Assembly: GCA_030549335.1 (NCBI GenBank)
Contig: CM060188.1
Span: forward strand, 6,882,001 to 6,946,000
Source: Pontederia crassipes
Taxonomy: Eukaryota; Streptophyta; Magnoliopsida; Commelinales; Pontederiaceae
Length of the DNA stretch: 64,000 nucleotides
Direction of reading: 5' to 3'
This document shows, one piece after another, positions 3,503 to 58,603 of this stretch. Within the stretch, counting starts at the first letter, position 1. Each line of letters opens with the position of its first letter. The notes under the pieces are model-generated. The model was not told where the DNA came from. It did no database searches and saw only the letters and a list, made by a program, of their open reading frames with translations. Position numbers and translations under genes: made by a program.

Positions 3503-5109
3503 TCATGTACTGGTCCTCGGAAAGGCGTAAGCTTTCAACGGAGACGCCATGGAAACAGTGACCCCATATTTCTCACTCATGTCTACATCAGCCGGAATCA
3601 TTCCCTCCGGCAGATTCCACTCAAACTTCTGGAGCAGCGTCGCGAGCGTCAGGTGTATCATTCGGACGGCCAACGGCAAACCAGGGCACATCCGGCGTCC
3701 AGCGCCGAAAGGAATGAGCTCGAAATCTCGGCCGCGGAAGTCGATGTCCTTCCCCGTGAGGAACCTTTCCGGCGAGAACTCGTCTGCGTCCCGCCAAAGT
3801 TCTCCGTCTCGTCCCATGGCCCAGACGTTGAAGAGCACGCGGGTGCCCTCGGGTATCCCGTAGCCGTGAAGCTCAACGGCGTTTCCGGCTTTACGAGGCA
3901 CCAGGAACGGCGCCGGCGGGTGGAGTCGCAGGGTCTCCTTTACAACAGCTTGGAGATAAGGAAGTTTGTCAATGTCGGACCACTCGACTTCTTTTGCTGG
4001 GTTAATCACGCGAGTAATCTCTTCCCGGGCCTTCGCCACGATCTCGGGGTTCCGAAGCATCTCCGCCATCGCCCATTCTACTGTGATAGAGCTCGTGTCG
4101 CTCCCTGCTGTAAACAAGTCCTGACAAAAGGATGATTCTTTAGACTAATTAAGTTTACATAGAAATTTTGCACAATGCAATTAGATATATATCTGGTATA
4201 TATAGATTGATCTACCACAAGCATGGATCTTATTGTGTCTCTATCAAGATAATTAGAACCGTCATCTTGTGCTTGGATTTGGAGGATCGTGTCCAGGAAG
4301 TCATTACAACCCGGGGAGGCCTCGTTTTCTATGCTACGCAGCCGCCTGTCGATCTGCTCGTCGAAGAAGGCGTGCATCTTCTTGTAGAGGTGTTCCATCC
4401 GACCACGTAGGCCTTGGAGATCAAATCTTGCGAGAAATGGGAAGAAGTCCGAGACGTTCGGCGTTCCCATTTCAATCATTATTTGCAGCAATACATCCAT
4501 GAACTCCTGAGTCGACTCGAGGTTGAGGTCGACGAAGTCGACCGAAAAGGTGGCGCAAGAAATCAAGTTGAGCGTCGTGGCGAACACCGATACGCGGATC
4601 TCGACGAGCCGACCCTCGGAGGATCTGCCGACGACGTAGCGCACGAGCTCCCGCAGCTTCTGGCGGCGGAGAGGCTCCTGGGCGTCCAGCCGTTGTGGCG
4701 TGAATAGCTGGGTATTGGATAACCTGCGGAGTTTGCGCCATTGCTGCGCCGGGGGCAACCACCCCATGGACGTCCTGTGATGGTTGCAGGCGTGGACCAC
4801 GGCCGGAGGGAGGCGATGTGAGAACACCGCGTCCTTCTTCTGGAGAGCTTCTCTTGCTGCCTCTGCGGAGGAGACGACCACCGTCGTCTCCGTGCCTAGG
4901 CGCAGGGTCATGACGGGGCCATGGAGCTTGGCGAGGCGAGTGAGGGAATGGTGCGGGTTCTGGCCGAGCTCGAGCAAATTTCCGATAATCGGAAGTGGCC
5001 ACGGCCCCGGCGGCAGTCTTGATAGCCTTCTCTCGACTTGCAGGAGGAAGCCGAGGAGAGAGACGGAGAACGACAGCCATAGAAGCCATTCAAAGACGGA
5101 GGAGTCCAT
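3503..5109 (-). CDS. Cytochrome P450, CYP76 family (intact, two exons)
   Basis: Exon 1 is 5109-4216 (298 codons) and exon 2 is 4120-3503 (205 codons plus TGA). The 95-bp phase-0 intron has a GTAGAT donor and a TTTTGTCAG acceptor, giving 503 residues, a normal P450 length. ATG 5109 is chosen because it gives the acidic start MDSSVF and lies about 42 bases from a TATA box. An upstream in-frame ATG falls in the likely leader. Visible features are an N-terminal membrane anchor (about 8-23), the PPGP hinge (33-36), helix-C WRKLR (124-128), I-helix AGSDTSS (303-309), K-helix ETLR (360-363), PERF (415-418) and the heme loop FGAGRRMCPG with ligand Cys443. The sequence pattern fits CYP76, whose members hydroxylate monoterpenols, diterpenes and other small molecules at the ER with electrons from P450 reductase. 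Substrate and subfamily are not readable. It is the only unbroken copy of the array. Confidence 0.93.
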
Positions 5110-5150
5110 TTCATTATTTCGTAGCATGCATGCCCTTTGCATGGGCCGCT

Positions 5151-5159
5151 TATATATAA
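5151..5159 (-). promoter_or_regulatory. TATA box of the intact P450
   Basis: TATATATAA-type box on the minus strand, about 42 bases upstream of the ATG, implying a leader of only 10-20 bases. A GGCCCA motif lies between it and the start. The same arrangement is kept upstream of the copy at 27475. Confidence 0.6.
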
Positions 5160-5564
5160 TGACATATGATTTGAAATGATTTATTTTTCCTTCGATTGGG
5201 TGAATGTATATGTCACTTTTATTTTTACCTCACAAAAATATTTCAAAAAAATGTCTTTCGTTTCGTGTCCACATCCTTCAAAGTTCCTTCCACTACAAAG
5301 TACATTGTTAATTACGGGGAAGGAAAAATTGCTTTTTTAAGGAAAAAAACGTGCTATTAAGCTAGAACATACTTGTTATGATATAATATCTAGGCTAGAT
5401 GAGGAGGTCCAACAAACAAAAAATATATGAAGACAAGGAAAGAAAAATTATTGGATCTTTGGTGGTTTCTACGGTTTGGCTGCATGTCTTTGCGAACAAT
5501 AAAGTTGGCGTCATGGATTAAGTAATCATTTTTGTCTCACGTAGAACTTTATATAGATAGCAAC

Positions 5565-8072
5565 TTATGCTTTAAATTTGTACCAAATGTATTTAAAGTA
5601 GAGCTTAGAGTGTTAGAATTTATGAAGAATTAGTTAAATCTAATGTATCTTAATAATTTATTGTTGGAATATGAATGTTTCAAATTTTAAATATATTATT
5701 TTGTGAAAATTGATAAATGTATTCATACTAATTAGTTAAGTATAAAATACAACATCACATCTTTTCATTAATGAAGTGTTATAACATTGAATGAAAAGAT
5801 ATATTCACATGTGTTATAAGTGAAATGATGTCATGAATGATTTATTTCATTAATAAAATAATATTCTTATATGAAAGTCGCATCACTTCATAAATGAAAA
5901 GATATGTTCACACTTGAATATGCGTGTTCATATTTTAAGAGTTATATTCACACTTGAATAGATGCATCATTTCATCATAAGATATATCCCTTGATATGTG
6001 TTCACATACCAATAGATGTGTCATTTTATCATAAGGTGTGTCCTTATATGAAAAAAAATAATTAAGTGAACTCTTTTATTAATAGGTGTGTTTTTTTACG
6101 AAAAGACACTAGACACATCCCTTCGTGAAGTACCATTTCAAGTCTATAAATAGGTTTCTCCTTCTTTCATTTTCAATGAATCGAAAGCAATTGCAAGTGA
6201 GAAGTAATGAACTTGTGATGAGTACTATGTATATAACACATGAAAATGCATTCAAGTCATTACAAATTACTAGAATAAGAGACCGAGTTCTTCAACAGTT
6301 ATTAGTTGGCGAACTCTATGACTTCGTTATATCCTGGAGTATTATTGTCGCAAGCCCAATAACAAACTTCGTGTGGGGACAAATAATTTTTTAAAGATAG
6401 TGATTCATCGTGCCTCGAAGCCTTGATCTTTGTTTATTCTCTTTCCATCTACCCACTATTTCCAACATTTATTAGGAGGAGAAAATGATGGTGTGAAGTG
6501 AAGATAGAAAATAAATGTGTAAAAAAATTAAATAATAAAAAATAAAATAAATGAGTGTTGAGTCTAAAGAAGATGGATGATTAAAAATAAGGATTAACTA
6601 GCACGAACAATGATGATTGAATTATAATAATGATAAACGAATTCAACTCTTAAGACATATTAGGATTACATAAATTAATGACATCTACGTTGAGTAGATT
6701 AAACTATCCTAATTCCCGCAAAATTTAAGACCAGAAACGATGAATTAACCTTCAGTGAAGCAAAAATATTAAGATGTATTAAGTTGTATATCTTAAACTA
6801 ACACTCATCCACGCTGGGTGAAAACTAATAGACCACACAAAATCTAATACAAACAATGAATTACTAGTTTTGTGATATGATTGTTTCAACTTTAAATTAC
6901 AAATCAACTCGTTGAGAATTATCAAATTCTAAAACTAACCACTCCACACCTGATTTGTAGTCTTATTTAAGAGCATAATAATCTCCGTAAAAAAATGTTA
7001 AGCACAATAATCTTAATAAAAAGAAATCGAAATAATTATATTAAACCAAATCTGACAACCGAGTTCATAAAGCTTTCTCCTAAACAATACAAATCTCTTT
7101 TACATAAAAGGTACAAATAATGAAATCTGAGTAAAGAGCATTTAAACAATTATAAGAGGACAGAATTCTTCGCTTTCAATGATCTTTGGATTGCTACATA
7201 GTACACGCGCTGAGTTGTTACGCAATTTCTTTCGAACAAGCACCGGAAAACTCTAAAATCCATTCTTTGCAGTGTAGCATAGTTCACAGGACTCAAGCAC
7301 CCCATTTTTTTATCTCCTAGAACTTTTATTTATAGCCTTCAGGTGTCCCAAGAGTTTTGATAAAGTTTTGATTTGATTGAGAGTTTTTTATATAAAAATA
7401 ATAAAAATTTAGAATTGACTTTTATTAGCTTTTAAAACCATCCAAAACTCCTCTAAATATGAGTAAATATGTTTTCTAATGATGCCATGTCTTTTATGAT
7501 AAAGTTTAAAATTGATTTGCAATTGAAATTTTCAAGAAAAGTTGAACAAATTCTGAAATCAACCTTCCTAACGTCCCATAACATCTTCGTAATGGTCTGA
7601 ATATGACTTTTCACGATCCGTAACACTATTTTCACTATCTTTACAATGTTCAAATCGGAGTAAAAGTTTGGTTTTAACAGCCCGTAATACTTTGGTCACG
7701 GCACGTAACTCGGGTAAGTTTTTGAACGAATCTGGACATTTTAATGTGTTGTTACAGACCTATAATGCCCTTTCTGTTATGACCATTACAACTTCATCAT
7801 AGTCCGTTACATTCAATTTTTAATCTTGGCAGTTTCCACTAATTAATTTGTAATTTCTAGCTTCATTTTAACTTCGATTTGAGTGTCATTTTTTCTAGTA
7901 GCTTCTTAATTCAAATTTCTTATTTTTCTGCAATAAAGCATAGAATTTGGGTATATTTCTATTTTTATAAAATTAAAGCAAATGAGGTCAAAAAATGATG
8001 TATGTTATATGAAAATGAATCAAAATGTGATTAAATGCATGACTAATTATATGTTATATTCTACATATATCA
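5565..8072 (-). mobile_element. LTR fossil, TGATGC...GCATCA family, copy A
   Basis: On the minus strand this matches the solo LTR at 44843-46439: the promoter region with a TATA-like box near 7330, the downstream leader, the sequence around 6480-6720, and the 5' end at about 8072. It is broken and interrupted by a younger solo LTR at 5662-6467. A related copy sits at the same place relative to the second P450 (27931-29069), so it probably predates the duplication. The superfamily is uncertain; the end sequences resemble Ty3/Gypsy Tat-type LTRs. Confidence 0.65.
5662..6467 (+). mobile_element. Solo LTR, Copia-like, nested in LTR copy A
   Basis: This 806-bp unit begins TGTTGGAATATG and ends TTTCCAACA, with inverted TGTTGGAA/TTTCCAACA termini. 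It is flanked by a perfect 5-bp duplication TTTAT at 5657-5661 and 6468-6472. The surrounding LTR resumes exactly across the site when compared with 28030-28070, which lacks the insert. A TATAAATAG promoter box lies near 6147. There is no internal coding region, so it is a solo LTR left by recombination between two LTRs. Its absence from the paralogue dates it after the segmental duplication. Confidence 0.85.
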
Positions 8073-9830
8073 GTAATAAAAATTAAAAATTGAGCAATTT
8101 GTTTATCACAAGTACAACTTACATACTTACAGCTGTAACTACTTGAAAATTCAAAAGAATTTAAAATTTTCTAAATTCCTAACATCAGACTTTTGGACGC
8201 CCAAAACTGGAGCGAGCGCCCATTGTTGCCGCGAAGACGACAACTCAGCTGACAGTCGATCGGACTATCGAAAATATTTTGTGCAACAGACAAGAACAAT
8301 TTTTTTCTCCTCTATGATACCCTAATAAACTTTGAGGATTTGTAACTTACCTCCACCATGTTCATTAAGGAATTAATGTACCAAAACCTCCAACATTATG
8401 TCCTTTAAGCCTCATTTATTTTCTTTTGGAATTCCCCTCAATTAATTTTTCCCCTTTGGTGTGTTCTACCTCTATCATTTTTACTCGGCCAACAACTTTT
8501 GGAGGAGGTCCAGATGAAGAAGAAGACGCAGAGGCGGATAAGGAATACTAGAGCGTGAGGCTTCGAAGAATCAACCGAAAGACCTACAAAAAGGTGCATT
8601 TTTGGGATCTAGGTTATAGGATAGTTCCTGAATGATTTGCATGTTTTAAGACTAGTTTGAGATTAAAATTCATGCTAGAATGCGTAGGAGAGTATGTTTG
8701 GTTCACCCGTGGATGTTTAATTTGATTTTAGAGAGCATGCCAATACTTAAATCAACTCTATTTTTTCTCTGACGATTATTGTTGGCCACACTCAAATTTG
8801 TTGGGTTGGGTGCTACTCCTCTTACATAATACATAATCAGTCTCATCGTGTTCTCACGAACTGCAACAAAAACATTCATATAAGTCCACACTGATATGAT
8901 GATCATGAGCATTGACTTGATGTCTTCAGTCTTATTATGTTGTTCTGGGTTCAATACCCTTGACATTAGGCTGTAGTGTGTTGTCACGGTTAAAATGATT
9001 TGATTTAGTGTTGAAGAGGTGAGGATTATGATAGGTTAATTATGTCCTTACTTGTACCTTATTATTGTTCATTTTTATTTATGAATGTCTAGAACGCCCA
9101 CATGCTGAGCTCTTTTATGCGATACATGAATAACATGTAGGTCCCCAAATCTTATATAATTACATGGATCATTGTTTCTTTATACATATTTGATTAATAT
9201 ATCCTCACTTAATGGATAAAGATTTCCAAGCGTGCTGTACAACATAGATATACAGAAGTCATGAGAAAATGTGATACTTGCTATGACTCATGCTGGAGGT
9301 ATGATCCATGTATTGGAATCATGAGTATTTAGTTGTTATCCATAAATAAAAATGAGAACATAATATACGCGGAGGCCTGCCAAAGACAAGACTTTAATAT
9401 TAAGAGATTAATTATTAGAATGTTGTGATGTGACTTAGTTATGAATGAGATAATTCGCTTATAAATATATAGTGATTTTATGATGTTTATGCTAAGGATG
9501 CTCCTCTGAATTATACTGTAAGATAGAACATGTTAGCTAGCATTAGATTTATATTTTTCGTGGAAAATTGATTGAAAAGTTAAGGATTTTCGCAATGACT
9601 TGCGGCTCTACTGATATGCAATTGACGACCCAATCCCTTTCGGGCGTCCGATTCGCCTCAACAGAAGTATAGCAAGTACTATATCGAACAACCGATATGG
9701 ATCAGAATGGAAGTTCGAAACTCGATAGGACGATCGATATGAACCAGAATTAATGTTAAAACTCAAAAATATCAATTTCGCAAAATACGTCACGGAAACT
9801 TAAAATCGATTTGCTCAACTCTAAATCAAT
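8073..9830. repeat. Duplicated non-coding segment (pairs with 29070-30850)
   Basis: No credible gene. The segment is collinear with 29070-30850, sharing for example the tract with the GATGAAGAAGAAGACGCAGA stretch near 8513 and 29521, and the blocks around 8780-8990 and 9600-9740. It follows directly on the LTR fossil in both copies, so it is probably part of the same old element or its flank. Differences are scattered substitutions and small indels. Confidence 0.7.
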
Positions 9831-13251: not shown

Positions 13252-13431
13252 CATGAATAGCTGGGTGTTGGATAATCTGCAGAGATTGCGCCACTATTGT
13301 GCCGGTGGCAGCCACACCATGGAGGTCCTGTAATGGTTGCAGGCGCGGACTACGACTGGAGGAGGGCGATGCGAGAACACTGCGTCCTTCTTCTAGAGAG
13401 CCTCTCTTGCAGCTTCTGCAGAGGAGACGAT

Positions 13432-16252
13432 TGTCACACCCCACTCTGTGACTAAGTTCTAATTCCAACTATTACCTTCCTTAATTATGTTTAACAATTC
13501 TATAAATAAAATCAGTAAAACATCCTCCCTTATTCATCTTATGTCGTTTGTCAATACATACAAATGATGCATATATATTCATCAAGGTCAAATAAACAGT
13601 TATAAGATATATCATTCACATATTGCCATTATAATTTTTTTCCACTAACCACCTCACATATAACACTCCACAGGATCAAGTTTTATACAACCTTACAAAA
13701 AATCTCTCACAAATTTAATTACAACATCTAGGATTATCTATTACATACATGTTTCAAAAATAAAAATGAAGGGGAAAATAAAAGTGAAAGAAAAATATCA
13801 ATGCTCCGACGGTTCGACCTCTTCTATATGCATCAAACCAAGCTTCGAGTCAACTCAACTCGAGAACTTAGAATCATCTGAAAAAAAAATCAACAAGGGT
13901 AATGTGAGCAACAATCCTTTGCTCAGTTAGTGAAATAAATGTACAACATAGGGGAAAAATACGAGTGCATATGACATTTAAATAATCATATTTCTTTTAT
14001 ATGAGAAAACATTTAAAGCATAACCCATTTCACATAACATTCCAAATCATATGAATTTTTACATAAATACAAATTATTCAAGATATCATCATATTCACAG
14101 TTAAACTCCACACATGTGTCATTGCACATACTCCTCATGGATCAATACGTATCCCTCTATGATCATGTTTCATACAGTTACGCAGAGCTTCATAATCAAG
14201 AGTATCAGATATGTAGAGCAAATCATAGATTAATACATATCCCAATCATGATTGTGTGCCACCTAATCATGATTCTCGGATACGCAGAGCATATCATGAG
14301 TCAATATGTATCCCAATCATGATTGTGTGCCACCCAATCATGATTCTTAAATACGCAGAGCATATCATAGGTCAATACGTGCACGCAGAGCAGCCCCCAA
14401 AGGGCAAATACACCCGATATACGTCACAAAGGCTTCATGTATATCGAATGCGATCCCAAAGACCTTTTTCAAATAGCATGATTAATGAACACATGGAGTT
14501 TAAAAATATCAAAATACACATGTCATAATCTCATATCATTATCAAGTAAAACTTATTTTCACTTCACAAGCATTGTTCCCTGAAAATATTTTTGTATAAG
14601 ATGTTACTCCATCTCATATGAACTCCTTGAAACATATCATAAATACTCTTCATAGCTCAAGATATGATTCAATAATAACAATAATAATTTTTGCTTGAAG
14701 TAATACTATAAATAAAAGAACTAACATATAATATTTTGCTATGTTGTAAATTTACCCACTCACCTTGTGCTTTATGTTTTCAAAGAGGTTACTAGATTTT
14801 CCTCCTTCCACTTGTAGCTTGTTGGTTTTCTACAAATAATTATGATATTTTATTTTTGAATTACTAATAATAACAATATGCAATGCATGCATGAACACTT
14901 ATTCACCTTAAAATGCATATAATTCCTTCTAATACTAATGTGTAATTTCAGGTGTTTATGTTCATATGCTACCTCACACTCTCAACTATTCAATTTTTTA
15001 AAGTTTAACTAGGTGTTGTCTTAGGATTTCATACTGAGTACTTATCAATGAATAATTCATAATTTCTTAACCACAAAGGCAAATCTTATAATTCTGGATA
15101 AATTAAAAATTAAACGTACTAAGATTTCCATCCCCCAAATATAATTAATTAAGTCCAAGTGAGAAATTCAAAACTTCCCAGAAAATCTGACTTAGAGTTT
15201 GTGTCCGCAGACTGTGTGTCACTGAATGATTAATTTATATCTTTAACAATACTTATTCATTTGATAAGATCCTAATTTTTCTAGAATCTAGACTTCAGTA
15301 GCGTGTAGGAATAAAAATTGTAGAATCTAACTCCTTGTATGAACTTATAACAAAAATAATTAATTATGGTCGTGATCTATCCATGTCCTGGAATATGATA
15401 GAAGCATCATTATGAAATGAAAAAAATTCATTTCTCCCAAACTACAAGTCCAAATAGGATGATTCTACTTCTCGCCGAACTCAGAATGCCTAATTAATCA
15501 TATCCAATTTCCAAATCCTAATTCATTATATTTGAACCGTGCCCTAATTCACAAGTTGAACATGTATCAGACTCGGGATAGGATGAGTGACCAACAAAGT
15601 TAAGTACATAACTTCCTATATAAAACTCTTTTTTAGGTGATTTCAGAGGCCATGGAAATCTAACTTCGAATGAATTAAGCATACAAAATTTCATAATTTG
15701 TGGTGCAGTAATCATGAATGAAAAATCCTCTCAATCAGAAGAATAATTTACGGATCGAAACCTCACCTTGAACAACTTATGTTGTCGATTTTTCCCAGGA
15801 CGTTTCGCTCGAATTCTTCCTCTGGAAATTTTTGGTCCGTCAAAGGATAGAGTTAAGTTGTTTATATATTGTTTTCAGAATTTTCGGACGTCATATGGAG
15901 GTTTGAAAAAATATCCATCTAAGCAGTTGTTCACCGGTCTACTTCAGCTGCTTAGAACTTAAGTGATGGTCAAGCACATTTTTTTATCATAATTAAATGT
16001 TTTAATCCTAATTAAACTTACTTAATACTATTTAAACATAATATTATAATATTTAGAAATTTTACAATTTATTTCTAATAAACTTATGTAATTACTTTTA
16101 TAAAATTTATCGACAGTTAAATAATCATTATGCTCTAATTGGAATATTAATTACTATATACAAATATCACTAAATGAACATCCAAACTAACTTAATATGT
16201 TATTAAATGCATGATTATGCAGAAATGATGTTTGTAAAGAACATCCGTGACA
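13432..16252 (-). mobile_element. Large solo LTR (Gypsy, Tekay/Del-like) inside the P450 remnant
   Basis: This 2821-bp unit has TGTCAC/GTGACA inverted ends and is flanked by a 5-bp duplication with one mismatch (ACGAT at 13427-13431, ACGAC at 16253-16257). Comparison with the intact P450 shows the exon is simply parted at this point. No gag or pol is recognisable, and the length suits the very long LTRs of Tekay-type Gypsy elements. The orientation is inferred from resemblance to the LTR at 40519-44059. Several subrepeats occur near 14110-14400. Confidence 0.75.
14110..14400. repeat. Subrepeats inside the solo LTR
   Basis: A unit of about 75 bases containing CAATCATGATTGTGTGCCAC and ATACGCAGAGCATATCAT recurs two to three times. 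Such internal arrays are common in long plant LTRs. Confidence 0.7.
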
Positions 16253-16487
16253 ACGACAACCATCATCTCTATGCCGAGGAGCAGGGTCATGACGGGGCCA
16301 TGGAACTTGACGAGACGCACGAGGGAACGGTGCGGGTTCTGGCCGAGCTCCAACGAATTTTCGATGATCGGAAGTGACCGTGGCCCCGGGGCAGCGTCGA
16401 TAGTCTTCTCTCGACTTCCAACAGGAGGAAGAGGAGAGAGACGAAGAATGAAAACCATAGAAGCCATGCAAAATCGGAGGATTCCAT

Positions 16488-18208
16488 GTTAATAATACGT
16501 CCCGTGCATGACATTTCATTTTATATGTCTATATATATATGGACATATACAATATGCCGGCGCCCCTTAACGAAAATTAGGTTAATTATTCAAATTCAGA
16601 TTAAAAAAACTATTATTCATTAGATTCAAAATTTTCAGTTCGGTTGGGCTAAAGCATCATTCCATATAATATTATTCACACAACAATAATAGCTGAGTAT
16701 AAAATATATTGCAGGTGTGTTATATGAAAAAGAGTACAAAAATATATTAAGAGGCATGTACAATTTATGGATCTAAAAAAATATTATTTAACATATCGGT
16801 TAATTTTATTTTTTATTCTAAATTTTTATTAATACACAGAATCTAATCAATTGAATTTAATTAATAAAACCATTACTCGCAAATCGAATCGAAATGAAAT
16901 ATTAAATAAATAATGGACCGTTTGTGGGCCTCCGTAGAACCACTAACTATTAACAGGTCCACAACTCAGGCACGTGATCATTTATTTAACCATTGGGCCT
17001 TCGGACCTTGTTAAAGCTCACGCAGCTCGCTGTCAATATTTGTTTTTTAAATGCCCCGCTAGAAGTAGGCCTGAGCACGGTCGGACCGCCCCGACCCGAC
17101 AATTCAGAAAAATAACCGGCTCGGATCTAATCCGGGCCGGATCCGGGTCTAATATATGAGAAATCCGCTGGTACCGGGTCAGGACCGGGTTTGCAATCCG
17201 GATAACCGATCCGGACCCGAACCGGATGATTAATATATAAAAGCTCAATCCCCCATTCCATCACCTCATTTCACGTTTGCTTTTCTCTCTCTCCCTCTCT
17301 CGCCCTCTCCCTCTCTCTCACCCCTCTCCTTCTCTCTCACTGCAGCGGCGGGCCGGCGGCGAGTCGATGACTTCGACGGCTTGACGGTTGCGACCTCTCT
17401 CCCCTCTCTCTCTCTACTCGGCCTCCGACGGCCGCTAGGCGCCGGATCTGACGCTTGACAATCGGATCGGCCGCCAAGTGCCGAATCCGATGCCTGGCGG
17501 CCGATTCGGTCGTCAGGCGCGGGATCCGGCGCCTGGCGGCCGATCCGGCCGCCAGGAGCCACGATCCGGCTACCAGATGCCTGATACGGTCGCCAGGCGT
17601 CACGATCCAGCCGCCGGGTCAGGATCGGGTCCGCCTAGACTCGGACCCGGTCCCGGATTTGCTCTGCCCTAGCTAGAAGGGTGTTGCATGGAGAGATGGA
17701 AAGATATAAATTACTTAAATTTTATTTAGATATATTTTTTATTTTAATTAAGACGATGAAATAGCGTAACTAAGTTATATTTATCTTCAAATATAGCATT
17801 TCCCATTCCACCAATAACTTTTCTTTCCGCTGGTAAAACAATTTTGGTTTATATTTATCTATCATTTTCATTTTATCTATTATATTAATATTACATTGAT
17901 ATAATATTTTTATAAATATTATATATATTTTTTACTTTTAAATGTAGATGAATAAAATATTTATGATAAAAATAAAGCAAATAAAAATAGGAAAATAGGA
18001 GGAACAATAAATAAATAGAGAGAAATAAAATAAATGATAAAAAAATTTTGTAAGTCATTAAATATTATAAATAATTTATATGTCACAAAGAGTATAAATA
18101 ATTTTTTCATAAATCAAACTTTCGTTCTTCAATTATGATTTTTGATAATTTATTATTTAAATATGAACATTTCAATTTCACCCTATATCCCATTATCTCA
18201 TCTCACAC
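16488..18208. repeat. P450 array spacer, copy 2 (left part)
   Basis: No gene. Outside the hAT MITE at 17066-17671, the sequence from about 16690 follows 1182-2090 in order, including the shared CACGTGATCATTTA block and the AT-rich stretch after the MITE. It is the 3'-ward spacer that would separate the exon-1 remnant from the next P450. Confidence 0.75.
17066..17671. mobile_element. Non-autonomous hAT element (MITE), 606 bp
   Basis: The ends TAGGCCTGAGC and (inverted) TAGGGCAGAGC form 11-bp inverted repeats with two mismatches. A perfect 8-bp duplication GCTAGAAG flanks it (17058-17065, 17672-17679). The paralogous spacer near 1545-1555 lacks the insert, giving an empty site. The 8-bp duplication and TAGG ends are hAT hallmarks. 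The inside is GC-rich, with many CCGGATC-like repeats and no transposase. Confidence 0.9.
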
Positions 18209-18527
18209 CAGTAGCAGTGGCACCCAACCCTCTTAAGGCCGAGGGACACTCCCCCGTCCTTACGTCCCCACCCCCGCCCTCGACTCCAATTTGAATCCCT
18301 GATGCGAGAGAAATATGATCCCCCGTCCCGATCCTATGAGCCCCGAATCCACGTGGGGATCGCGATATCCTGATGATTTTCGCCCAAGAAGAGGGTGTTG
18401 TCACTGTCTTTGAAGCTTTCCTTCGTCGGAAAGTGCGATGGCAACGTTGGCGTTCTGGAGCTCGACACTTGATCGGAGGTTGTCCACGAAGTTCAACCGC
18501 GAGGAGAAGGATCACAATGCCGTGGAC

Positions 18528-18690
18528 CCACCTAGAAGCTCATCGATGACTCCCTCTTGGAGATCACATCAGACGCCAACATGAAGACAGACAAGTTCTA
18601 TGAACTCATGCTCGCGCTGCCGGAACAAGCTAGGGTGTTTCGGCCTCCACACCAGATTTGTTGCCAGATGGTAGGGGGGTAATCGATAGT
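18528..18690 (+). pseudogene. NPH3/RPT2-like gene fragment
   Basis: The plus strand reads a KLIDDSLLEITSDANMK stretch followed by KFYELMLALPEQARVF. This matches the conserved part of the NPH3 domain, where family members read roughly LVDxYL...KF..LA.ALP..AR..DDGLYRA. A frame slip follows at once, and a GLHT stretch in the next frame fits the expected continuation. Upstream 18200-18520 is GC-rich but I cannot place it. NPH3 proteins are BTB adaptors for CUL3 ubiquitin ligases in phototropin signalling. This fragment of about 55 codons is not functional. The match is by motif memory, hence the moderate confidence. Confidence 0.5.
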
Positions 18691-18765
18691 GAAGGATCGG
18701 CCATTTTTTATGAAATCAAGCCCTTTCGCCTTTCTAAGTTTTTTAAATCTTTTTTCCCAGGACAC

Positions 18766-19280
18766 TTATGTATTTAAGCCATAGCAATTGTTAAGCTTGA
18801 TGCATCCCTTAACTAATACAAATGATATTATCATTCCAAGAAGTAAATACATAATTTTATCTCTCTTTACAACATCTTCATAGGCGATAATTTTATTGAG
18901 CAATCCTATTAAAATATTCTTATATTTATCCGATCTTCGTCTTTGAACTTTTTCATCGTCCTTTAGCAAGCTTCTTAAAATATTCTTATGCCAGTCATCC
19001 ATAGTTGGATCAAATCACTCAAAAAAATTTACAATCTTCGTGTGGGGGCTTACCCTGTAAGAACATTATATACAAAATGAACATCAGACGATGAAACAGA
19101 AATGAAGACCAAAATACATTACTTATTGGCAATGGAAATGTTTACCCGATAATGAGAGCACCCCCAAAATTGTCTCCCAGGTTTATTATTTGTCCATAAA
19201 GTTTGTAATATTGCCTTATCACCACATGCACAAAAAGGAATATCTAATTGACATGATATGAAAGAGGTAGAAGATGACAT
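18766..19280 (-). pseudogene. GRF-type zinc finger / transmembrane protein, broken
   Basis: Exon 1 (19280-19146, 45 codons) starts MSSSTSF and carries the GRF zinc-finger core: CACG, then TLWTNNKPGRQFWGCSHYR. A GTAAAC donor follows. The acceptor CTTACAG ends at 19055, and exon 2 (19054-18766) begins GKPPHEDCKFF, the last zinc-ligand block. There one extra T in a T-run shifts the frame, and the next block reads E-stop-FD where the family has EWFD. The remainder codes MDDWHKNILRSLL, a short charged helix and a C-terminal hydrophobic segment (about YLLLGMIISFVLV), the layout of small plant GRF membrane proteins. With a frameshift and a nonsense change it is a pseudogene or captured fragment. Confidence 0.7.
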
Positions 19281-19389
19281 GGCTGACCTGTGAAACAATA
19301 AGACATGCATGCATACATGAACACGATGAAGTAACATGAAACAAATAAGTACAATTTACGATAAACATAGTTTCATATAGATGTGACTT

Positions 19390-20340
19390 CGAAAGATACC
19401 GTGAGGGCGTGGCGGGGGCGTGCGAGAACGGCAGGGCGTGCGGGGGCAGAGTGCGATCGGGGTCGTGCGTTTGCGGAAGGGCAGGGTGCGGCCGGGGTGC
19501 GGGTGGGGTCGGCGTGCGTGCGGACGTTGTCGTGCGAGCGCGGCAGGGTGGCCGGCGGCATGCGGCGGCGTGTGGGCGGCGACGTGTGATGAAGGGCGGT
19601 GGCGGGGGCGTGCGTGCTACGGCGTGCGATGAAGGGCGGTGGCGGGGGCGTGCGTGTGTGAGATATCGGTTAAGCGGCGGCGGGCGGCGGCGTGCGTGCG
19701 TGAGATAGCGGTTAGGCGGCGGCGGCGGTCAGCGAGGGCGTGCCTGCGACGAAGGGCGATGGCGTGCGTGCGATGAAGGGCGGGGGCGTGCGACGAAGGG
19801 CGGCGGCGTGTGACGAAGGGCGGCGGCATGCGGGCGTTGTCGTGTGAGTGGGCAAGGCGGCCGGTGGCGGATCTGTCGGCAAAGACAAAGGTCAGCCCGA
19901 GATAAAAACCGGCAAAGGTATAGAGGACATAATGGGGAAAGTACCTTAGGTCGTAGATCTAGTCGGTGGTCGAAGTTCGGTGGATCTGGTCGAAGTCGCG
20001 TGGATCTAGTCGGCCGACGGTCGAAGATCGACGGATCTCGTATGGATCTGATCGAAGTCATGCAAATCTATTCGCCGGCGGTCGTGGTGGACCAAATCTG
20101 GTCGGCCAACGGTCGTGGTGGCACGGATCTGGTCGGCGGCGAACGTCGTCATCGAACTCATGGTCGCGGCCAGTTGTCGTCGCGCAAGAAGGGGAGAAAG
20201 AGGGAGAAAGAATGGTGAAAATGAGGGTAAAGGGCGAAATTTTTTACTGCAACCATCGTTTTATTCTCGGCCGATAACCGGTTCACGTGCGAAACCGGTT
20301 CACGCGAAAATTTAACCGGTTCATGGATGATTTTTAGTTT
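19390..20340. repeat. G-rich low-complexity and motif-repeat tract
   Basis: On the plus strand, 19390-19850 is built of GGCGGTGGCGGGGGCGTGCGTG-like pieces. From 19860 to 20170 there are repeats of GATCTGGTCGAAG/GTCGGCGG type, and from 20275 to 20320 ACCGGTTCA is repeated three times. Long open frames occur in several phases on both strands. That is what such composition gives, and no domain is visible. An (AAAT)n run follows at about 20402-20431. Confidence 0.6.
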
Positions 20341-22753: not shown

Positions 22754-22837
22754 TCATGTAGTGGTCCTCGGAACCGGAAAGGCGTAAGCTTTCAACGCAG
22801 TCGCCATGGAAACAGTGAACCCATATTTCTCACTCAT

Positions 22838-31404: not shown

Positions 31405-31409
31405 GAGAG

Positions 31410-49690: not shown

Positions 49691-50308
49691 TTAAGAAAAT
49701 ATTCCTAAAATATATTGAAATATGAGATTAAGATGATTATATATATAATGCTATTATAATGTATGATTAAATATTTAAATATATAATAAAAATAACAAAA
49801 ACTTCGTACAACATCCAATCGGGTCAGACCCATGCTCCTTGGGCCCAGGCCTAACACTCCGCTAGGTAGCCGGGTACTATCTGGCTTGAGCCCAACGAAA
49901 TTCAATGCGGGTGCATGCTGAAGTGGGCGACCCACGCGAAAGTTCAGCTATACAACTGCCGTTTCTCATCCTCTCATGATGTCTACAAGAGATGAGAGTC
50001 TCTTTACGAGGTTGTTGCTTTTTTTTTAATATTTATTTATAATTTTAATTTTTAAATGGAGATAAAGAAAATACTAATGCGATATAAAGAATTAAATGAT
50101 GGCAAAAGTTAAATGTTGCTTAAACACTATTTTCGTTATTTTATTTTATCTTTTGAGAAATTTTTTTAATGGCGATAGTGACTGAAACTTTTACAAAGTT
50201 AAACAAAGGATCGTTGTTCATAAAAGAACAATCGTCTCTCGCTAATAATTAGATTTTCATATTATTTATTTTTTATTACTTATTCTGTTTTTTATCATTT
50301 TATTTTTT
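49691..50308. other. AT-rich stretch without a recognisable gene
   Basis: Nothing supportable. 49820-49940 is a GC-richer patch with a GGGCCCAGGCC motif. The rest is A/T-rich. Confidence 0.5.
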
Positions 50309-50846
50309 ACATCCGCCGGAGTCATTCCCTCACGTAGGAAGTTCCATTCAAGTCTATGGAGAAGCGTAGCGAGCGTACTCTACACCATTCTAACTGCCAA
50401 CGGCAAGCCGAGGCAAATACGACGTCCGACGCCGAAAGGGATTAGCTCCAAGTCTCGGCCGCGGAAGTCGACGTCCTTCTCTAGGAACCTCTCAGGCGAG
50501 AACCCGTCCGCGTCCATCCAAAGCCCGCCGTCTCGTCCCAGACGTTGAAGAGCACGCGGGGGCCCTCCGGTGTCTCGTAGCCGTGGAGCTCTACGGTGGC
50601 TCCGCCGTCGTGGGGCTCCAGGAACGGCACTGAAGGGTGGAGCCGCAGTGTCTCCTTTACGATGGGTTGGAGATAATTAAGGCAGATTGCTGATGTTGGA
50701 CAACTCGACTTGTTTTACCGGACGCCCGGACCAATCACTCGAGCGACCTCTCCCGGGCCTTCGCCACGATCTTGGGGTTCTGAAACATCTCCACCATCGC
50801 TCATTCTATTGTGGTGGGGTTCGTCGCTCCCCGCAGCAAACAAATC
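50309..50846 (-). pseudogene. CYP76 exon-2 remnant
   Basis: The minus strand from 50846 reads DLFAAGSDE, then K-helix and PERF-region sequence with frame breaks, then an intact heme loop [10 protein letters not shown] (about 50405-50445) and the following helix. It ends near the counterpart of IPADVD; the last 25-30 codons are missing. At the splice acceptor, CAG has become TCG. No exon 1 is found nearby. It is more diverged from the other copies than they are from each other, so it is probably the oldest relic of the array here. Confidence 0.88.
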
Positions 50847-50859
50847 CGAACAAAAGGAG

Positions 50860-51814
50860 CGGAATGATGCATAAGAAAATAAAATTAGTTAAATTTAGTA
50901 ATTTATTTGGATAATTTTTTTATTTTAATTAAGAGGAATGAGATAGATTTTCCAAATATTACATTTTTTTATTTCACCAATTTGATGGAATAAGAAGGAA
51001 TAAATAATTTCAAATTAAATTAACCTTTTGCATTGATAAAATTTTTTTATTTATCATTTATTTTCACTTTTTACTTTTTCATTCATATAAATATTATGTT
51101 GCTAAAATAAATTTTATTTACAATTATTATTATAAACATTTAACTCTCTTTTTTTTTACTTTTTAAAGTATAATAATAAAATAGTTACGAGGAAAAAAAT
51201 AAAGAATATAATAAAAATAGAAAAAGATAGATGAAACAAGAAATAAAAGTGGAAATAAATTAAGTTGTAAAAAATAAATATTTGTTACTCATTATGCATA
51301 ATAAATAGTTTATATATAATAAAATATAGTTTTTAAACAAATTAAATTTTTTTTCTAACTTATTATTTTCATAACTTACTATTTAAATATGTACGTTTAA
51401 TAATAAACTACATTGTACTACTGTGTGTCACCTACACCAGCGCACTTCACCTCTCCATTAGTTATAATTGTTAAACAGGCTCTAAAACATTATTTTGTTT
51501 AACCATCAAAAGTATTTACTATTTTCACTTAATTTAATTTTAATTATCCTCAACTAATTTTGGAATTATTCTTTTAACTTTGGCATTATTCTTTTAATTT
51601 TGGAATTATTCTTTTAAATGATTTAACAAAATTATTTTAGGTTGCTAATATAGATGTATTATGGAAGAATATTATTTTTAAAACTTTTTTTTCCAAAAAT
51701 TAAGTATATACATATATGCCAATAAGAAATTATCAGATAAAAATGATATTAATTGAAATTGGAGTATACATTTATTATAAAAGGAAAATCTAGGTTTGTT
51801 TCCAAATAGTGAAA
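50860..51814. repeat. P450 array spacer, copy 3
   Basis: No gene. 50890-51400 follows 1590-2040 and 17700-18130 in order (A/T-rich, with the TTGCATTGATAAAA-like block). 51450-51670 follows 20550-20710, including the repeated GGAATTATTCTTTTAA motif. Confidence 0.65.
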
Positions 51815-53473
51815 TGATGCATACATCATCAAACATATATATCATGCGTCATTTTAAGTTTATTTATTTTCATTTTATAAAAACATATATCCAAAATTTG
51901 AGTTTTTGCATAGAAAGCAAAATAAAAGAGTTACGAAGTCATTAGAAAAATCACTCAAATCAAAATTAAAATGAAACCATAAAATAAAAATCAGTAAAGC
52001 TATTATGAACTAAAAATTGAGTGCCACCAGAGACCATGACAGTTTGGTCATGGATCATGATAGGGGCTCATGAAAATTTGATAGTAGGTCATAAAAATAT
52101 TTAATTTCATGTTCAAAAATTGGCTGAGGCACTACTTGTGACTAGTGTGTCACAACAAAAATTCAATTTTTAACTTTGAATCAGACAATGTAATAATTGT
52201 GCAAATGCTTGTCAGGGGTTGTAGAAACCTATTTTAATGTGTTTCAGACATTGCTTAAGTTACCATAGGTTGTTCATGGGGCATGGGACATGACTGAGGC
52301 TGAAATTGATTGGGAAACATACTTTCGAAAGAATTAACAATGCACAAAGACTATTACTCATGTCATATGCCAAAAGGGATCAATTGAAAGATTTTATGGA
52401 AAAATATTTGGAATCTGATAAGACAAAATTTCATATTCGATTCAAATTCAAATTTACCTTATTTTCAATAAAAATGCTTTTTGTTTCTTCTCCAGACATG
52501 AAAATTGGAAACCTTTATAATAAAGGTCTTCTATAACATGAAGAGAGGATGCTAGGACATGTAACTAAAGCTTTGATTCTAAGAATGTGAGAGAGTTCAA
52601 AAGATTTGTTGAGAAGATGTTTACACGATTGACTCTTAACGATGATCTAGTAGCGATTCATCGATGACCAAGACTATTCTCTATTCTAATATATGTTAGG
52701 ATTAGTTTAAGCATCAATTATCTATCTTTTTATTCTTTGTAATTTGGATCATGTAGTTTATTTCTATTTGAGAAAATTATAATAGTTTGAATTGATAAGT
52801 CAAGCTATTAGATTTTTCTTTTGTTATCTATTAAAATTTAGTTTTTTAATATGCATGCTATTATTAAAGATTTTCTAGAGATTAATTATCTTCTTTAATT
52901 AGCTATTATCCTTTTAGAAACATTGACTTTTGATTGCATGATTCATATGGAATTGATTGTTAAATTTTAAGTCAAAATATTGTATGTTGCAATTTGTATC
53001 ATCCTTGATTGAATAGTAGTTGTGCAATCTATTAAGCATTATCATGATTTGGATTACAATAGTTTAAAGACTACAAATTAATACATTTTAGTCTCAAGTT
53101 TGATTAGATTATAATCATACATGAAATAGTCTTAAACTACTTTTAATTAAAATATTTTAGTTGATACTAGATGGAGATCAGTAATATAAGTAGATTTTAA
53201 TCCATTGTTAGAAACTAAGTTATAATTTAGTAATTCAGTTTGCCATCATAAGCCTAACATTAGTATATTAGAACAAGTTAGCTTAATTTATGTTTCAATA
53301 ATTTTATTTTTTTCGCACCTTTTCTATTGAAATTATGCTATTTTTTATTAGTTTCTAAAACTAATTTAGATAAGAAAATTAAATTAATCGACAACTCTAT
53401 ACTTTGTACTTTATTATTTAGTCAACTAATCTACTTTGCTAGCGATATATTATTACTAACCATAGCATAATCA
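51815..53473 (+). mobile_element. Divergent LTR, TGATGC...AATCA (same family, old)
   Basis: It begins TGATGCATACATC and ends with GCTAGCGATATATTATTAC...CATAATCA, echoing the ends of the 1597-bp solo LTR at 44843. Its AT-rich 3' half is similar in order to 45700-46400. No target duplication can be read. It is an old, broken or decayed LTR, and the assignment is tentative. Confidence 0.45.
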
Positions 53474-54370
53474 AATTATTTACGAGCCATCGTTCACTCC
53501 TGATCGAGTTCGGAGGTCACCGGAGTACTACCATAGCCGTCAGTTAATTGGATGTTTATTTTGTGTGACTTAAGTGGAGAAACATGCCATTGGGGATTGC
53601 TCCCATTTCATGTGAATTGATGAACAAAAATCATTTTAATGAATCATTTATTTCTTTGCGGCATCCGAGGATTCCTCTCGTTTTATGTGAATTGATGGAC
53701 GAAAATCATTTTAATGAATTATTTATTTATTTGTGAAAAAATGATGAATGATGATCTTTATGGTAAGGGTCTTCTTTTTTCTACTCTGTTGGATTAAAAT
53801 TGATACGAGTTTAAAATGATGACTAAAAGTGAGAACATTATTAGACATTGTTTGTTTGTTTTAACCCCTTTTTTCGATTTTTAAATTGTTTCAAATTTTA
53901 TTTTTTTCCTTTATAATGAAGCACTATTTTATATAATTCATCATTTTATATTGTCATTTAAAAGAACTTATTATACTTGGTATGTATATAAATGGGTAAA
54001 AAATGAATACCCCGGGAGGGTGACTACTATGTTATACCATGATTTTTAATTGGGCATATAATAAAACGGGACTTCACTCAAATGATTTACAAAGTGTTTA
54101 TTTTAATTTTACACTTGAAATCAAATAAAAAAGTTAATCTTCATTTAATGTGAGTGAGTTAGAGGTTCATGTTTACAAATTCAAATTTTACCTGCGAGCA
54201 CGAGCCAAGTATGAAGTGACTGGCCCTAGTGCATCTGAAGATGGAGGCTCCCTTCCTCACCAACCTCGATCGCCAAATCACGGTGGTCTCAGGGCGGAGC
54301 TGGTCAGACTCGTTCTAGTTATGTGAATTCGTGAGTAAAACTTTCGTGATATAAATATATACCAATAAAT
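53474..54370. other. AT-rich stretch without a recognisable gene
   Basis: Nothing coding. An imperfect direct repeat of about 65 bases occurs at 53610-53670 and 53680-53735 (shared TGTGAATTGATG and AAAATCATTTTAATGAAT). Confidence 0.5.
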
Positions 54371-54371
54371 A

Positions 54372-54423
<52 letters not shown>

Positions 54424-54469
54424 GTTATTATTGTTGTTGTTGTTATTGTTATTGTTGTTGTTGTTGTTT
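54371..54469. repeat. (ATT)n/(GTT)n microsatellite
   Basis: About 16 ATT units pass into GTT-rich units, nearly 100 bp in all. Confidence 0.95.
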
Positions 54470-54506
54470 AATTTTACTTTATAAAATATGCCACATAAGC
54501 AAAAAT

Positions 54507-55750
54507 CACTACAAAAAAAGTTGTCAAATAGCGACGTTCGTTAGTGAATCAAATTGTGTGACGCTATTTCGACACCAATAGCGTCCCCATAGCGACTTCG
54601 TTAGTCGACAAAAGAAGACGTCAATTACCTCTCAGTAGCATTTATTTAGCGTCGCCTTAGCATTACCGATTGTTTATATGGTTATATATTTTTTCTATTT
54701 TGCAGAGGACGTTATTGTTTGGAATGAGGGGGACGACACGAGGGCTCAAGTTCCTAGGAGGATCAAAGAATATGCAGATGATCCATCTACTCTGTCGCAC
54801 CTAAGCTGACGTTGGACAGCGTCAGCGGATTTATCTTGGAGCAGTTTTCTTAATATCTAGTTCTCATCTTGCAATTGATTCAGAGCATGCTCCGACCACA
54901 TATGCGATCCCCACAAGGCCAAGAACTACGTCGGCATTGAATGTCATGAATGACATCGATGATGATAATAATTTAGGATTTTCGTAACATTTTGATACCT
55001 ATTGTGAAGTTTGATATGCGTTTATTATGTTATTAACATTTTGTGATGTTTATTAGTTTTTAACATGCATTACTCTTTATTAATTATTATTATGAATGCT
55101 TAGATCATTGTGTATGTCAAGAATGCATTATATATATGCATTGTAAATTGAATGAGAAGGGAAGGAAAAAATAGGGGTGAAATAGGGCAAAAGAATTGAC
55201 AATGAGCACCTCCTTAGTGTATCAATAGTGACGCATTTGAGCTGGATGCCATATGACCATATCGTATTTAGCGTCACCTTAGCGTCGAGTTAGCGACGCT
55301 AACTTTAGCGTCACTTTAGCATCGATCCCCATAAAGGCTCCATTCGATATCATGTTAGCGTTAATTTAGCATAACTTAGCATCACATGTGCGTCTACGTA
55401 GCGTCGAGATTTAGCGACGCCTTGGCGTCTAAGTAGTGCCACATGCTGCGACAAAAAAAACTACGTTGGAGATTGTCTTACGCCATATTAGCGCCCAAAT
55501 AGCATCTGATTTAGCGTTACACCAAGCTAGTGTTGACAACCCAAGAACCACATTAGCGCTGACGTAGCGACCCATATTATTGTTTTGTAATGCGACTTTT
55601 TGTGTGGAGTAGAGTTGACATGTGACACTAGTAACGTCGTCCGGGTCCTTGGTGTCATCGCAATGCTAACAACTACTGAAGGTCGGCGTCCCAACATTGT
55701 GATATCGTGTCGACGTTAACGTGTGGCTATATTTTTTAGCCACACGATTT
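54507..55750. mobile_element. CACTA (En/Spm)-like non-autonomous element
   Basis: The left end CACTACAAAAAAAGTTG at 54507 is the CACTA terminus; the preceding AAT could be the 3-bp duplication. Near the left end (54530-54660) and across 55195-55590 there are a dozen or more TAGCGTC/GCGACGCTA-type motifs in both directions, the subterminal arrays that CACTA transposases bind. A small exon-like block at about 54710-54810 follows a TTTTGCAG acceptor and reads a short D/E-rich frame. The right end is not certain: 55590-55605 keeps GCGACTTTTTGTG, a possible decayed terminus. No complete transposase is present. Confidence 0.65.
55720..55746. repeat. Perfect 10-bp hairpin
   Basis: CGTGTGGCTA, a 7-base loop, TAGCCACACG. 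It lies at the right edge of the CACTA-like region. Confidence 0.9.
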
Positions 55751-57001
55751 AGTGCCTCGCTAACTGATTTTTATTAATATTTAAAAATTGACGATATCAA
55801 TTGAAAGCATAGTTACTGAAATAAGTTAACTGTTAAAGTACGGTGCCACTGAGTATATAGTTAAAACAAGAATAAAATTCTAACATAGTTACAAAAATTT
55901 ATCCCAGTATGACGAGGTACGACGATGATTGCCAAACTTATCGATTTAACAGTAGCTAATGAATAAATCGCAAGTTCAATAACGACAAAATGATTTTAAG
56001 ACGTGTTAACATTCACATATTCAATTAAAGATTAAAGCAAGCATTTTATAAATTGAATGAATCAATTAATTCATTTATATAAAATGACATAAGTATATAG
56101 AACATAAGTTTGGATAATATACAAAAATGTAACTTTTTTTGTAATTCTTTTACCCTAAAGATTAGATGGTGTCAAATAAATAACCAAAATTTAACGTAAA
56201 TACATACTATCAATTTTTCATCTATTTATTAATTATTCAAATAATAAATATATTTATTATAAGACACCTAAAAATAATTATATTTATTATATAATTTAAT
56301 TTAAATGTTAAAAGTAATAAAAAAATATTTATTATAAGACACCTAATTAAATTAATTATAGTAACACGTATATATGTAGTGCATGAAATTTAATAATATA
56401 AGGATAATTGAAACAAAAAATTTTACCCTCCATCATAATTCTAATAAAATCAACTTATTTAAAATATCTAATTAATCCCAAATACTATCACTAAGTTTAA
56501 TCGCTAAATTATTTTAACGCCTTTTTGTCTTTGAACGCACTAGGGTTCTTGTTCGCCGCTATTGAGCACACTTAATTTCTCAATGGAATCGCAATATTTG
56601 TTGATATTGGGCGTCGAATGACCTAGATTTAATTTGAGAACAAAAAAATGACTCGATCCAATAAAAATGTAATCAAATTGGATTATATTGAATCATTTTT
56701 ATTCATTTTTTCTCTTCTAAATCAACCTGAAAATTTACAATCGGACGTAGCCACAAATTTGAACCATTAATTATGTTAACCACAAGAGGGATACGAAAAT
56801 GTTAAAATAAAATAAAATATGTTTAATTATGATGAAAGAAACAAGATTCAACGACAATAAGCACTATATTATTTAATATTAATAAATAAAAAAAGACTGG
56901 AAATTTTATTAATTGTCACACATAATCACACACACGAAAACGATAGTCTAAGATAAGTAAAATACATTCTTCCAAGTCCATTAATTATTACATAAAATAG
57001 T
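55751..57001. repeat. P450 array spacer, copy 4
   Basis: No gene. 55990-57001 is collinear with 21740-22753 and 2100-3502. It contains the same GACTCGATCCA and AATCAAATTGG blocks just downstream of the P450 stop codon. Confidence 0.75.
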
Positions 57002-58603
57002 TCATGCATTGGTCGCCGGAAAAGCGTCAGCTTTCAATGGAGACGCCATGGAAACACTGAGCCCATATTTCTCACTCATGTCTATATCCGCCGGACTCAT
57101 TCCCGCCGGCAGCTTCCATTCAAACCTATGGAGCAGCGTACCGAGCGTCAGGTGCACCATACGGACGGCCAGCGGCAAACCGGGACATATGCGACGTCCC
57201 GCGCCGAAAGGGATGAGCTCGAAATGTCGGCCACGGAAGTCGATATCCTTCCCAGTTAGAAACCTTTCCGGCAAGAACTCGTCTGCGTCCCTCCAAATTT
57301 CGCCGTCTCGACCCATGGCCCAGACGTTGAAGAGCACGCGGGTGCCCTCGGGTATCTTGTAGCCGTGGAGCTCAGCGGTGGTACCGGCTATATGAGGCAT
57401 CAGGAGGGGCACCGGCGGGTGGAGTCGCAGTGTCTCCTTTACGACGGCTTGGAGATATGGCAGGTTGTCGATGTTGGACCACTCGACTTCTTTTGCTGGA
57501 CCGATCACACGAGTGACCTCTTCCCGGGCCTGCACCATGATCTCGGGGTTCCGAAGCATCTCCGCCATCGCCCATTCCACTGTGATAGAGCTCGTCTCGC
57601 TCGCTGCTATAAACAGGTCCTGACAAAAGGATGATGCTTTAGACTAATTAACCTTACATAGAAATTTTGCACAATACAGTTAATTAGATCTATAGTATAG
57701 ATTGATCTACCAGAAGCATGGATCTTATTGTGTCCCTATCCAGATAATTAGAACCATCATCTTGTGCCTGGATTCGGAGGATCGTGTCGAGGAAGTCATT
57801 GCTCGCTGGCGAGGCCTCGTTTTCTGTCCTACGCAGCCGCCTGTCGATCTGCTCGTCGAAGAAGGCGTGCATCTTCTTGAAGAGGTGTTCCAACCGACCA
57901 CGGTGGCCTTGGAGATCAAATCTTGCGAGAACTGGGAAGAAGTCCGAGACGTTCGGCGTTCCGATTTCGATCATTATTTGCATTGCCCGTCCCTCAACTC
58001 CTGAGTCGATTCGAGGTTGAGGTCGACAATGTCGACAGAAAAGGTGGCGCAAGAAATCAAGTTGAGCGTCGTAGCAAACACCACTTGACCAATTTCGACG
58101 AGCTGACCCTCAGAGGATCTGCCGGCGATGTAGCGCGCGAGCTCCTGCAGCTTCTGGCGGCGGAGAGGCTCCTGCGCGTCCAGCCGTTGTGGTGTGAATA
58201 GCTGGGTATTGGATAACCTGCGGAGTTTCCGCCATTGCTGCGCCGGCGGCAGCCACCCCATGGACGTCCTGTGATGGTTGCAGGCGTGGACCACGGCCGG
58301 AGGAAGGCGATGTGAGAACACAACATCCTTCTTCTGGAGAGCTTCTCTTGCTGCCTCTGCGGAGGAGACGACGACCGTCGTCTCCATGCCTAGGCGTAGG
58401 GTCATGACGGGACCATGGAGCTTGGCGAGGCGAGTGAGGGAATGGTGCGGGTTCTGGCCGAGCTCGAGCAAATTTCCGATGATCGGAAGTGGCCACGGCC
58501 CCGGCGGCAGTCTTGATAGCCTTCTCTCGACTTGCAGGAGGAAGCCGAGGAGAGAGACGGAGAATGAAAGCCATAGAAGCCATGCAAAGACGGCGGACTC
58601 CAT
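57002..58603 (-). pseudogene. CYP76 P450, nearly intact, one frameshift
   Basis: Exon 1 is 58603-57711, the 91-bp intron has GTAGAT and TTTTGTCAG, and exon 2 is 57619-57002 (205 codons plus TGA, same length as in the intact gene). It starts MESAVFAWLL and keeps the anchor, PPGP, WRKLR, ETLR, PERF and FGAGRRICPG motifs. One base is missing relative to both other copies between 57982 and 57995, in the block after LNLESTQE, giving an early stop about 205 codons in. The I-helix motif reads AASETSS instead of AGSDTSS; the Gly-to-Ala change is unusual for the oxygen-binding groove. The TATA box of the other copies is replaced by GCATACATA. If the frameshift is an assembly error this would be a second gene; otherwise it is a young pseudogene. 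Confidence 0.88.

Follow-up and report, generated by a model that had tools for sequence, protein, structure and literature searches.

A tandem CYP76-like cytochrome P450 cluster with one intact gene and graded decay in Pontederia crassipes, probably shaped by ordinary birth and death

Tandem clusters in which intact and broken cytochrome P450 (P450) genes stand together are known from several plants, and they are the closest described systems to the locus analysed here, an array of five CYP76-like loci in a 64,000-nucleotide stretch of Pontederia crassipes (GenBank assembly GCA_030549335.1, contig CM060188.1, forward-strand positions 6,882,001 to 6,946,000; hereafter the window). According to the available text on grapevine, the 579 curated P450 sequences comprise 279 complete genes, 269 pseudogenes, 11 putative pseudogenes with a single lesion and 20 partial genes, and clusters 92 (CYP82) and 190 (CYP76) arose when blocks of three to four P450s were duplicated together with the DNA between them; cluster 190 holds 11 CYP76 sequences, seven of them complete (PMC6023221). 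The same text gives the CYP76M bloom of rice as 11 genes and two pseudogenes, with diterpenoid roles for at least four members (cited in PMC6023221), and the accessible part of a study of Lamiaceae describes miltiradiene clusters with P450 pseudogenes and with copies and fragments of CYP76AH (PMC9860074). We consider it highly probable that the array in Pontederia crassipes is a tandem cluster of CYP76-like P450s evolving by ordinary birth and death.

An earlier sequence-only reading of this DNA had proposed five CYP76 loci on one strand, and this was confirmed by a blastn search of the intact copy (locus A) against the window at E <= 1e-3, which returned eight pieces with E-values from 0 to 2e-28, all on the minus strand, that group into the following loci (identities are to A; types 1 and 2 refer to two paralogue positions set out below):

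3503..5109, minus strand: locus A, intact CYP76-like gene (type 1), recognised by its open frame, splice sites, Pfam match and PDB relatives; piece 5109-3503 (100%)
13254..16487, minus strand: locus B, exon-1 fragment (type 2), from blastn and alignment; pieces 16487-16253 (82.6%) and 13430-13254 (85.3%)
22754..27475, minus strand: locus C, damaged copy (type 1), from blastn and alignment; pieces 27475-26100 (94.2%), 26099-26025 (94.7%) and 22854-22754 (90.1%)
50308..50858, minus strand: locus D, exon-2 fragment (type 2) carrying stops and several indels, from blastn and alignment; piece 50858-50308 (76.2%)
57002..58603, minus strand: locus E, full-length copy (type 1) with one deletion of 1 nucleotide (nt) at codon 206, from alignment and frame reading; piece 58603-57002 (90.1% over 1610 columns)

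Beyond these loci, tblastn at E <= 10 gave a single 16-residue match (31586-31539, E = 7.7), which was taken as chance, and the array may extend beyond the window. Only in locus A does the frame stay open through to a stop, over 503 codons, while from the start codon to the first stop it measures 209 codons in E and 66 in both C and B; A is thus the sole unbroken copy, as had been claimed. Altogether, the blastn identities and the series of lesions support shared ancestry and graded decay of a CYP76-type array. The further claim that the loci share spacers and promoter flanks stands in part: flanks on both sides are common to A, C and E, but the likeness of B to A is confined to about 29 nt 5' of its ATG, and the spacers fall into two classes.

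Locus A has exon 1 at 5109-4216, a 95-bp intron with GT..AG borders (4215-4121) and exon 2 at 4120-3503, and encodes 503 amino acids (aa) that match Pfam PF00067 (p450) with E = 2.3e-111 and 373 bits over profile positions 1-447 of 462. The motifs typical of plant A-type P450s are PPGP at the hinge, AGxDT within helix I, ExxR, PERF and an FxxGxRxCxG heme loop, and all the motifs looked for are present in the translation of A, as PPGP, AGSDT, KETLR, PERF and FGAGRRMCPG. Among the best 60 of 340 matches in the PDB, ferruginol synthase (449 bits) and sugiol synthase (436 bits) come closest, followed by isoflavone synthase at 252 bits. Over the alignment with ferruginol synthase 5ylw, named in the search result by its enzyme only and which we take to be CYP76AH1, 208 of 482 residues are identical (43%), and A therefore clears the identity of at least about 40% to a named member by which P450 families are named. 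Because the ferruginol and sugiol synthases score far above isoflavone synthase, and given this identity, CYP76 appears to be the best label for A; CYP80, which groups with CYP76 in the available grapevine text (PMC6023221), was not seen among those 60 matches, which calls for caution. A probably encodes a working microsomal P450, most likely one that oxidises a small terpenoid or related isoprenoid substrate. A search with exon 1 of A (298 of the 503 residues) confirmed 0 of 4 pattern matches in viral contigs and 0 of 48 in prokaryote contigs, which is uninformative on plant relatives.

The organisation of the array emerges from its spacers. Six intergenic spacers were compared pairwise and against 2-mer-shuffled controls (six shuffles per pair), and they sort into class II (left of A, B-C and D-E) and class I (A-B, C-D and right of E). 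All six same-class pairs align on the plus strand, with best high-scoring segment pairs (HSPs) of 90-1590 bits, whereas no plus-strand match of E < 1e-5 is seen in any of the nine cross-class pairs, whose top HSPs score 28-40 bits, the shuffled controls as a whole giving 24-36 bits. The spacer features, all unstranded and drawn from this comparison, are:

1182..3502: class-II spacer downstream of A, partly alignable with 16686-22753 and with 51044-57001
16686..22753: class-II spacer between B and C, homologous in patches and broken up by other DNA
50882..57001: class-II spacer between D and E, matching the B-C spacer from 24 bp beyond the D fragment onward
5110..9749: class-I spacer upstream of A, partly alignable with 27476-30836 and with 58773-59316
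27476..30836: class-I spacer upstream of C

Class-II homology stretches from the region 3' of A, C and E to within 199 nt of the start codon of B and 24 nt of the exon-2 edge of D, and B and D therefore occupy matching places in two blocks. On the simplest reading, the array consists of about three head-to-tail repeats of a type-2 gene, a class-II spacer, a type-1 gene and a class-I spacer, namely (?-A), (B-C) and (D-E). A, C and E then read as one paralogue, and B and D hold the place of an older one. Homology thus spans more than a single gene position, intergenic DNA included, with the type-2 position defined by location only, and it is patchy (the A and B-C spacers, for instance, share 1681 aligned bp). 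With two paralogue positions in repeated two-gene blocks, the idea of five equal copies is not supported. Left of position 1182, at the left edge of the window and near the expected type-2 place of the A block, lies a reverse-transcriptase fragment (PF00078, 406-873) of the long interspersed nuclear element (LINE) type.

The order of duplication is suggested by two kinds of evidence. Spacer HSPs between the A and C blocks show 76-89% identity, and those between the E block and either of them 69-83%, save one 41-bp HSP at 90%; coding dS is 0.082 for A-C, 0.227 for A-E and 0.180 for C-E. Spacer identities and coding dS agree in pointing to the topology ((A,C),E). As the sequence-only reading had proposed, dN/dS was measured across copies. 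Under a three-branch codon model fitted to 477 of 504 codons (27 were dropped for gaps or a stop), omega is 0.29 on the A branch, 0.33 on the E branch and 0.90 on the C branch, and fixing it at 1 costs 4.93, 13.29 and 0.03 units of log-likelihood (lnL), respectively. A is under purifying selection, its branch rejecting neutrality; E was constrained for the greater part of its branch, a branch that also covers time preceding the duplication; and C is compatible with neutrality.

Traces of earlier constraint are also seen in the type-2 fragments. B preserves the 5' portion of exon 1, which carries in-frame stops and has lost 1 nt, and D preserves most of exon 2, at 76.2% identity to A, 76.4% to E and 74.6% to C by blastn, or 80% of ungapped columns to A or E. 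Against A or E, dN/dS is about 0.5 for the first piece of B and 0.31-0.37 for D; the second piece of B shows 15 synonymous and seven nonsynonymous differences and two stops over 58 codons. Since these dN/dS values lie below 1, both fragments were constrained for part of their history before loss. Because B keeps exon 1 and D exon 2, with differing breakpoints, the type-2 copies were apparently lost independently in both visible blocks.

The start of E is anomalously similar to A and C, and site counts delimit the following tract:

58147..58603, minus strand: 5' part of exon 1 of E, probable gene-conversion tract with approximate limits

Differences unique to E occupy 9 of 419 sites up to nt 420 and 95 of 1109 after it (Fisher p = 1.9e-6), with a change-point at nt 457 (permutation p = 0.0004), whereas sites at which A or C alone differs are spread as 16 of 419 and 53 of 1109 (p = 0.49). 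Moreover, B differs from A by 15-18 mismatches per 100-nt window over nt 1-400, and the 5' stretch of E is therefore not intrinsically slow. The first 420-460 nt or so of E were probably homogenised with A or C by gene conversion.

The damaged type-1 copies differ in the extent of their lesions. In C there are 1-nt deletions at codons 64 and 275, a 6-nt insertion near the 3' end and a 68-nt deletion across codons 431-453, by which the heme-cysteine loop is gone. In E, the frame ends after 209 codons owing to the single 1-nt deletion, which lies outside any long homopolymer, and the copy is otherwise complete, with normal start, splice sites and stop. Because dN/dS on its branch is 0.33, the lesion of E is read as recent or as an error, and it may not be fixed. 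Helix I of E (57593-57607) reads AASET, where A and C have AGSDT; the glycine altered in E is at a usually conserved position. The promoter region of E carries a 256-bp element (58872-59127) resembling a miniature inverted-repeat transposable element (MITE), with ends GTGTTTGG / CCAAACAC. Insertions split both C and B:

22855..26024, plus strand: RTE-like LINE near the 3' end of C, recognised by its target-site duplication, PF03372 and PF00078
13431..16252, unstranded: 2.8-kb insert splitting B, with ends TGTCACACC...GTGACA and flanks ACGAT/ACGAC, from inspection of its ends

The 3.17-kb LINE has everything looked for in a non-long-terminal-repeat element, that is, endonuclease (22895-24058, PF03372) and reverse transcriptase (24004-25848, PF00078) open reading frames (ORFs), a simple-repeat 3' tail, (TTG)n, and an exact 17-bp target-site duplication (22838-22854 / 26025-26041); its assignment to the RTE clade is our presumption. 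Given this insertion and its target-site duplication, 22754-22854 is the 3' end of C itself and not a separate copy. The insert in B has termini TGTCAC...GTGACA with boundaries ambiguous by about 4 nt, and its type is putatively assigned from these ends, which resemble those of a long terminal repeat (LTR).

These observations would fit a history that starts from an ancestral block of two paralogues, type 2 at the position of B and D and type 1 at that of A, C and E, and passes through two head-to-tail duplications, for which unequal crossing-over is the probable mechanism. The D-E block would have branched off at the older split, and the younger one would have parted (?-A) from (B-C), after which the type-2 copies may have been lost independently. 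In C, constraint would have been relaxed soon after the separation from A, and indels, the loss of its heme loop and the LINE would have followed. E may have been constrained until recently and partly homogenised with its neighbours by conversion before a single frameshift, or an assembly error, arose, which would leave A as the working gene.

Several points tell against parts of this account. Of the nine cross-class spacer pairs, five or six reach a best score slightly higher than any of the six shuffles made from them, the margin being at most about 6 bits, and there are two cross-class matches of 50 bp with E-values of 2e-4 and 8e-4; we read this slight excess and these matches as simple or repeated sequence common to both classes. 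One 166-bp minus-strand match joins 7846-8010 with 51991-51837, and it is taken for a mobile element because its stretch recurs inverted at 44.8-46.4 kb. In the A block no type-2 gene is seen within the window, homology stopping at 1182, and B and D do not overlap, so that their shared type-2 identity rests on position and greater divergence. The gain of three omegas over one is marginal (2 x 2.61 lnL, 2 degrees of freedom, p about 0.07) and the range of omega for C within 1.92 lnL is wide, about 0.4 to 2.4, and for these reasons there is weak support for an early relaxation of C; A-C dN/dS is 1.09 in exon 2 (seven synonymous and 24 nonsynonymous differences), a ratio that we assign to C and that pairwise data cannot place on a branch. 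The conversion signal weakens when synonymous sites alone are used (p = 0.010; permutation p = 0.012, change-point shifted to codon 334), and a run-based test was not significant (p = 0.07 to 0.73). Besides, the substrate of A is surmised from its family alone.

Other explanations of the array differ in how they treat the spacers and the near-intact copy. If A, C and E had each been copied singly with their flanks, B and D would be older loci lying between them; B and D do diverge more from A, C and E than these do among themselves, they are not comparable with each other, and the A block has no type-2 gene inside the window, but the reach of the class-II spacer to B and D places both at matching points in two blocks, and we regard duplication of single genes as unlikely. 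That E is a second functional gene, its 1-nt deletion being an assembly error or a rare allele, is possible, if doubtful: there is one lesion only in a copy with normal start, splice sites and stop, its branch rejects neutrality, and grapevine curators, in the available text, class P450s with a single lesion as putative pseudogenes for this very reason (PMC6023221), whereas the deletion is not in a long homopolymer, the promoter region holds the MITE-like insert and helix I departs from that of A and C.

The sequence-only reading had gone further and suggested that the loss of most copies may mark a changed or lost terpenoid product, in which case five equivalent copies would have decayed after the lineage abandoned or altered it. 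Four of the five loci are indeed damaged, and CYP76 enzymes often act in terpenoid metabolism, as the accessible part of one source states (PMC9953472). However, A keeps its P450 motifs and its branch rejects neutrality, E was mostly constrained, the spacer classes show that the loci are not equivalent, and no pathway gene occurs among the 20 proteins scanned with Pfam, in a window with 58 ORFs of at least 100 aa. Additionally, with 269 pseudogenes among the 579 grapevine P450 sequences in the available text (PMC6023221), damaged P450 copies are a normal background. A lost product does not follow, because A is constrained and E has a single lesion that may be unfixed, and we hold this explanation, unsupported as it stands, to be very improbable. 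There is likewise only a slim chance that a two-enzyme CYP76 module, with types 1 and 2 in one pathway, was dismantled stepwise, type 2 being lost in every visible block and then type 1 in two of three, with E as a segregating null allele; were it so, the metabolic difference would still be polymorphic within the species. Birth and death of a tandem cluster remains the preferred explanation, and the locus clearly documents, in one place, the growth and erosion of a P450 cluster through block duplication, probable conversion, indels, deletions and transposons. Counts of damaged copies alone do not indicate lost chemistry. If the lesion of E segregates, the locus could be used to test P450 copy number against terpenoid profile.

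The remaining features of the window are mostly mobile elements. The spacer between C and D holds one LTR retrotransposon:

31410..36086, minus strand: copia element with LTRs at 31410-31720 and 35787-36086 and target-site duplication GAGAG, from Pfam matches, ends placed by eye

Its domains include RVT_2, copia-type gag and gag_pre-integrs, among others found by Pfam, and its LTRs differ at 11 of 299 sites. At the grass rate of 1.3e-8 substitutions per site and year, the insertion would be about 1.5 million years old, a figure that is only indicative with a rate taken from grasses. A 1.6-kb segment at 44843-46439 with TGATGC..GCATCA-type ends is probably a non-autonomous DNA transposon; an uninterrupted relative of its surrounding sequence lies at 37835-38483, and inverted relatives occur at 6476-8060 and 27936-29061. 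Between A and B, 10942-11790 contains the decayed remains of Ty3-type protease and gag sequences (PF08284; PF19259 below its cut-off), and in the B-C spacer 19219-20277 is G+C-rich with many short tandem repeats and has no aligned counterpart in the A-block spacer. Among the 20 proteins scanned with Pfam no terpene synthase was revealed, and ten ORFs within this set gave nothing above a curated cut-off; Rfam (gathering thresholds) and ARAGORN found none of their targets in the window.

Compared with the known P450 clusters, as far as the available texts describe them, the array combines shared and distinct traits. Like grapevine clusters 92 and 190, it is built of multi-P450 blocks that include intergenic DNA, with genes and pseudogenes interleaved, but its blocks hold two genes rather than three to four, and whereas gene or pseudogene status is kept between blocks in grapevine, decay varies here and one of the five loci in the window is intact (PMC6023221). 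It resembles the rice CYP76M bloom as a clustered CYP76 expansion with some pseudogenes, although the rice members are mostly intact (PMC6023221), and no diterpene synthase appears among the 20 proteins scanned here. The same absence, within that scan, sets it apart from the Lamiaceae miltiradiene cluster, where diterpene synthases adjoin, while tandem CYP76 copies, fragments and pseudogenes among intact genes are common to both (PMC9860074). Taken together, the precedents of grapevine, rice and Lamiaceae make this locus a new example of a known pattern.

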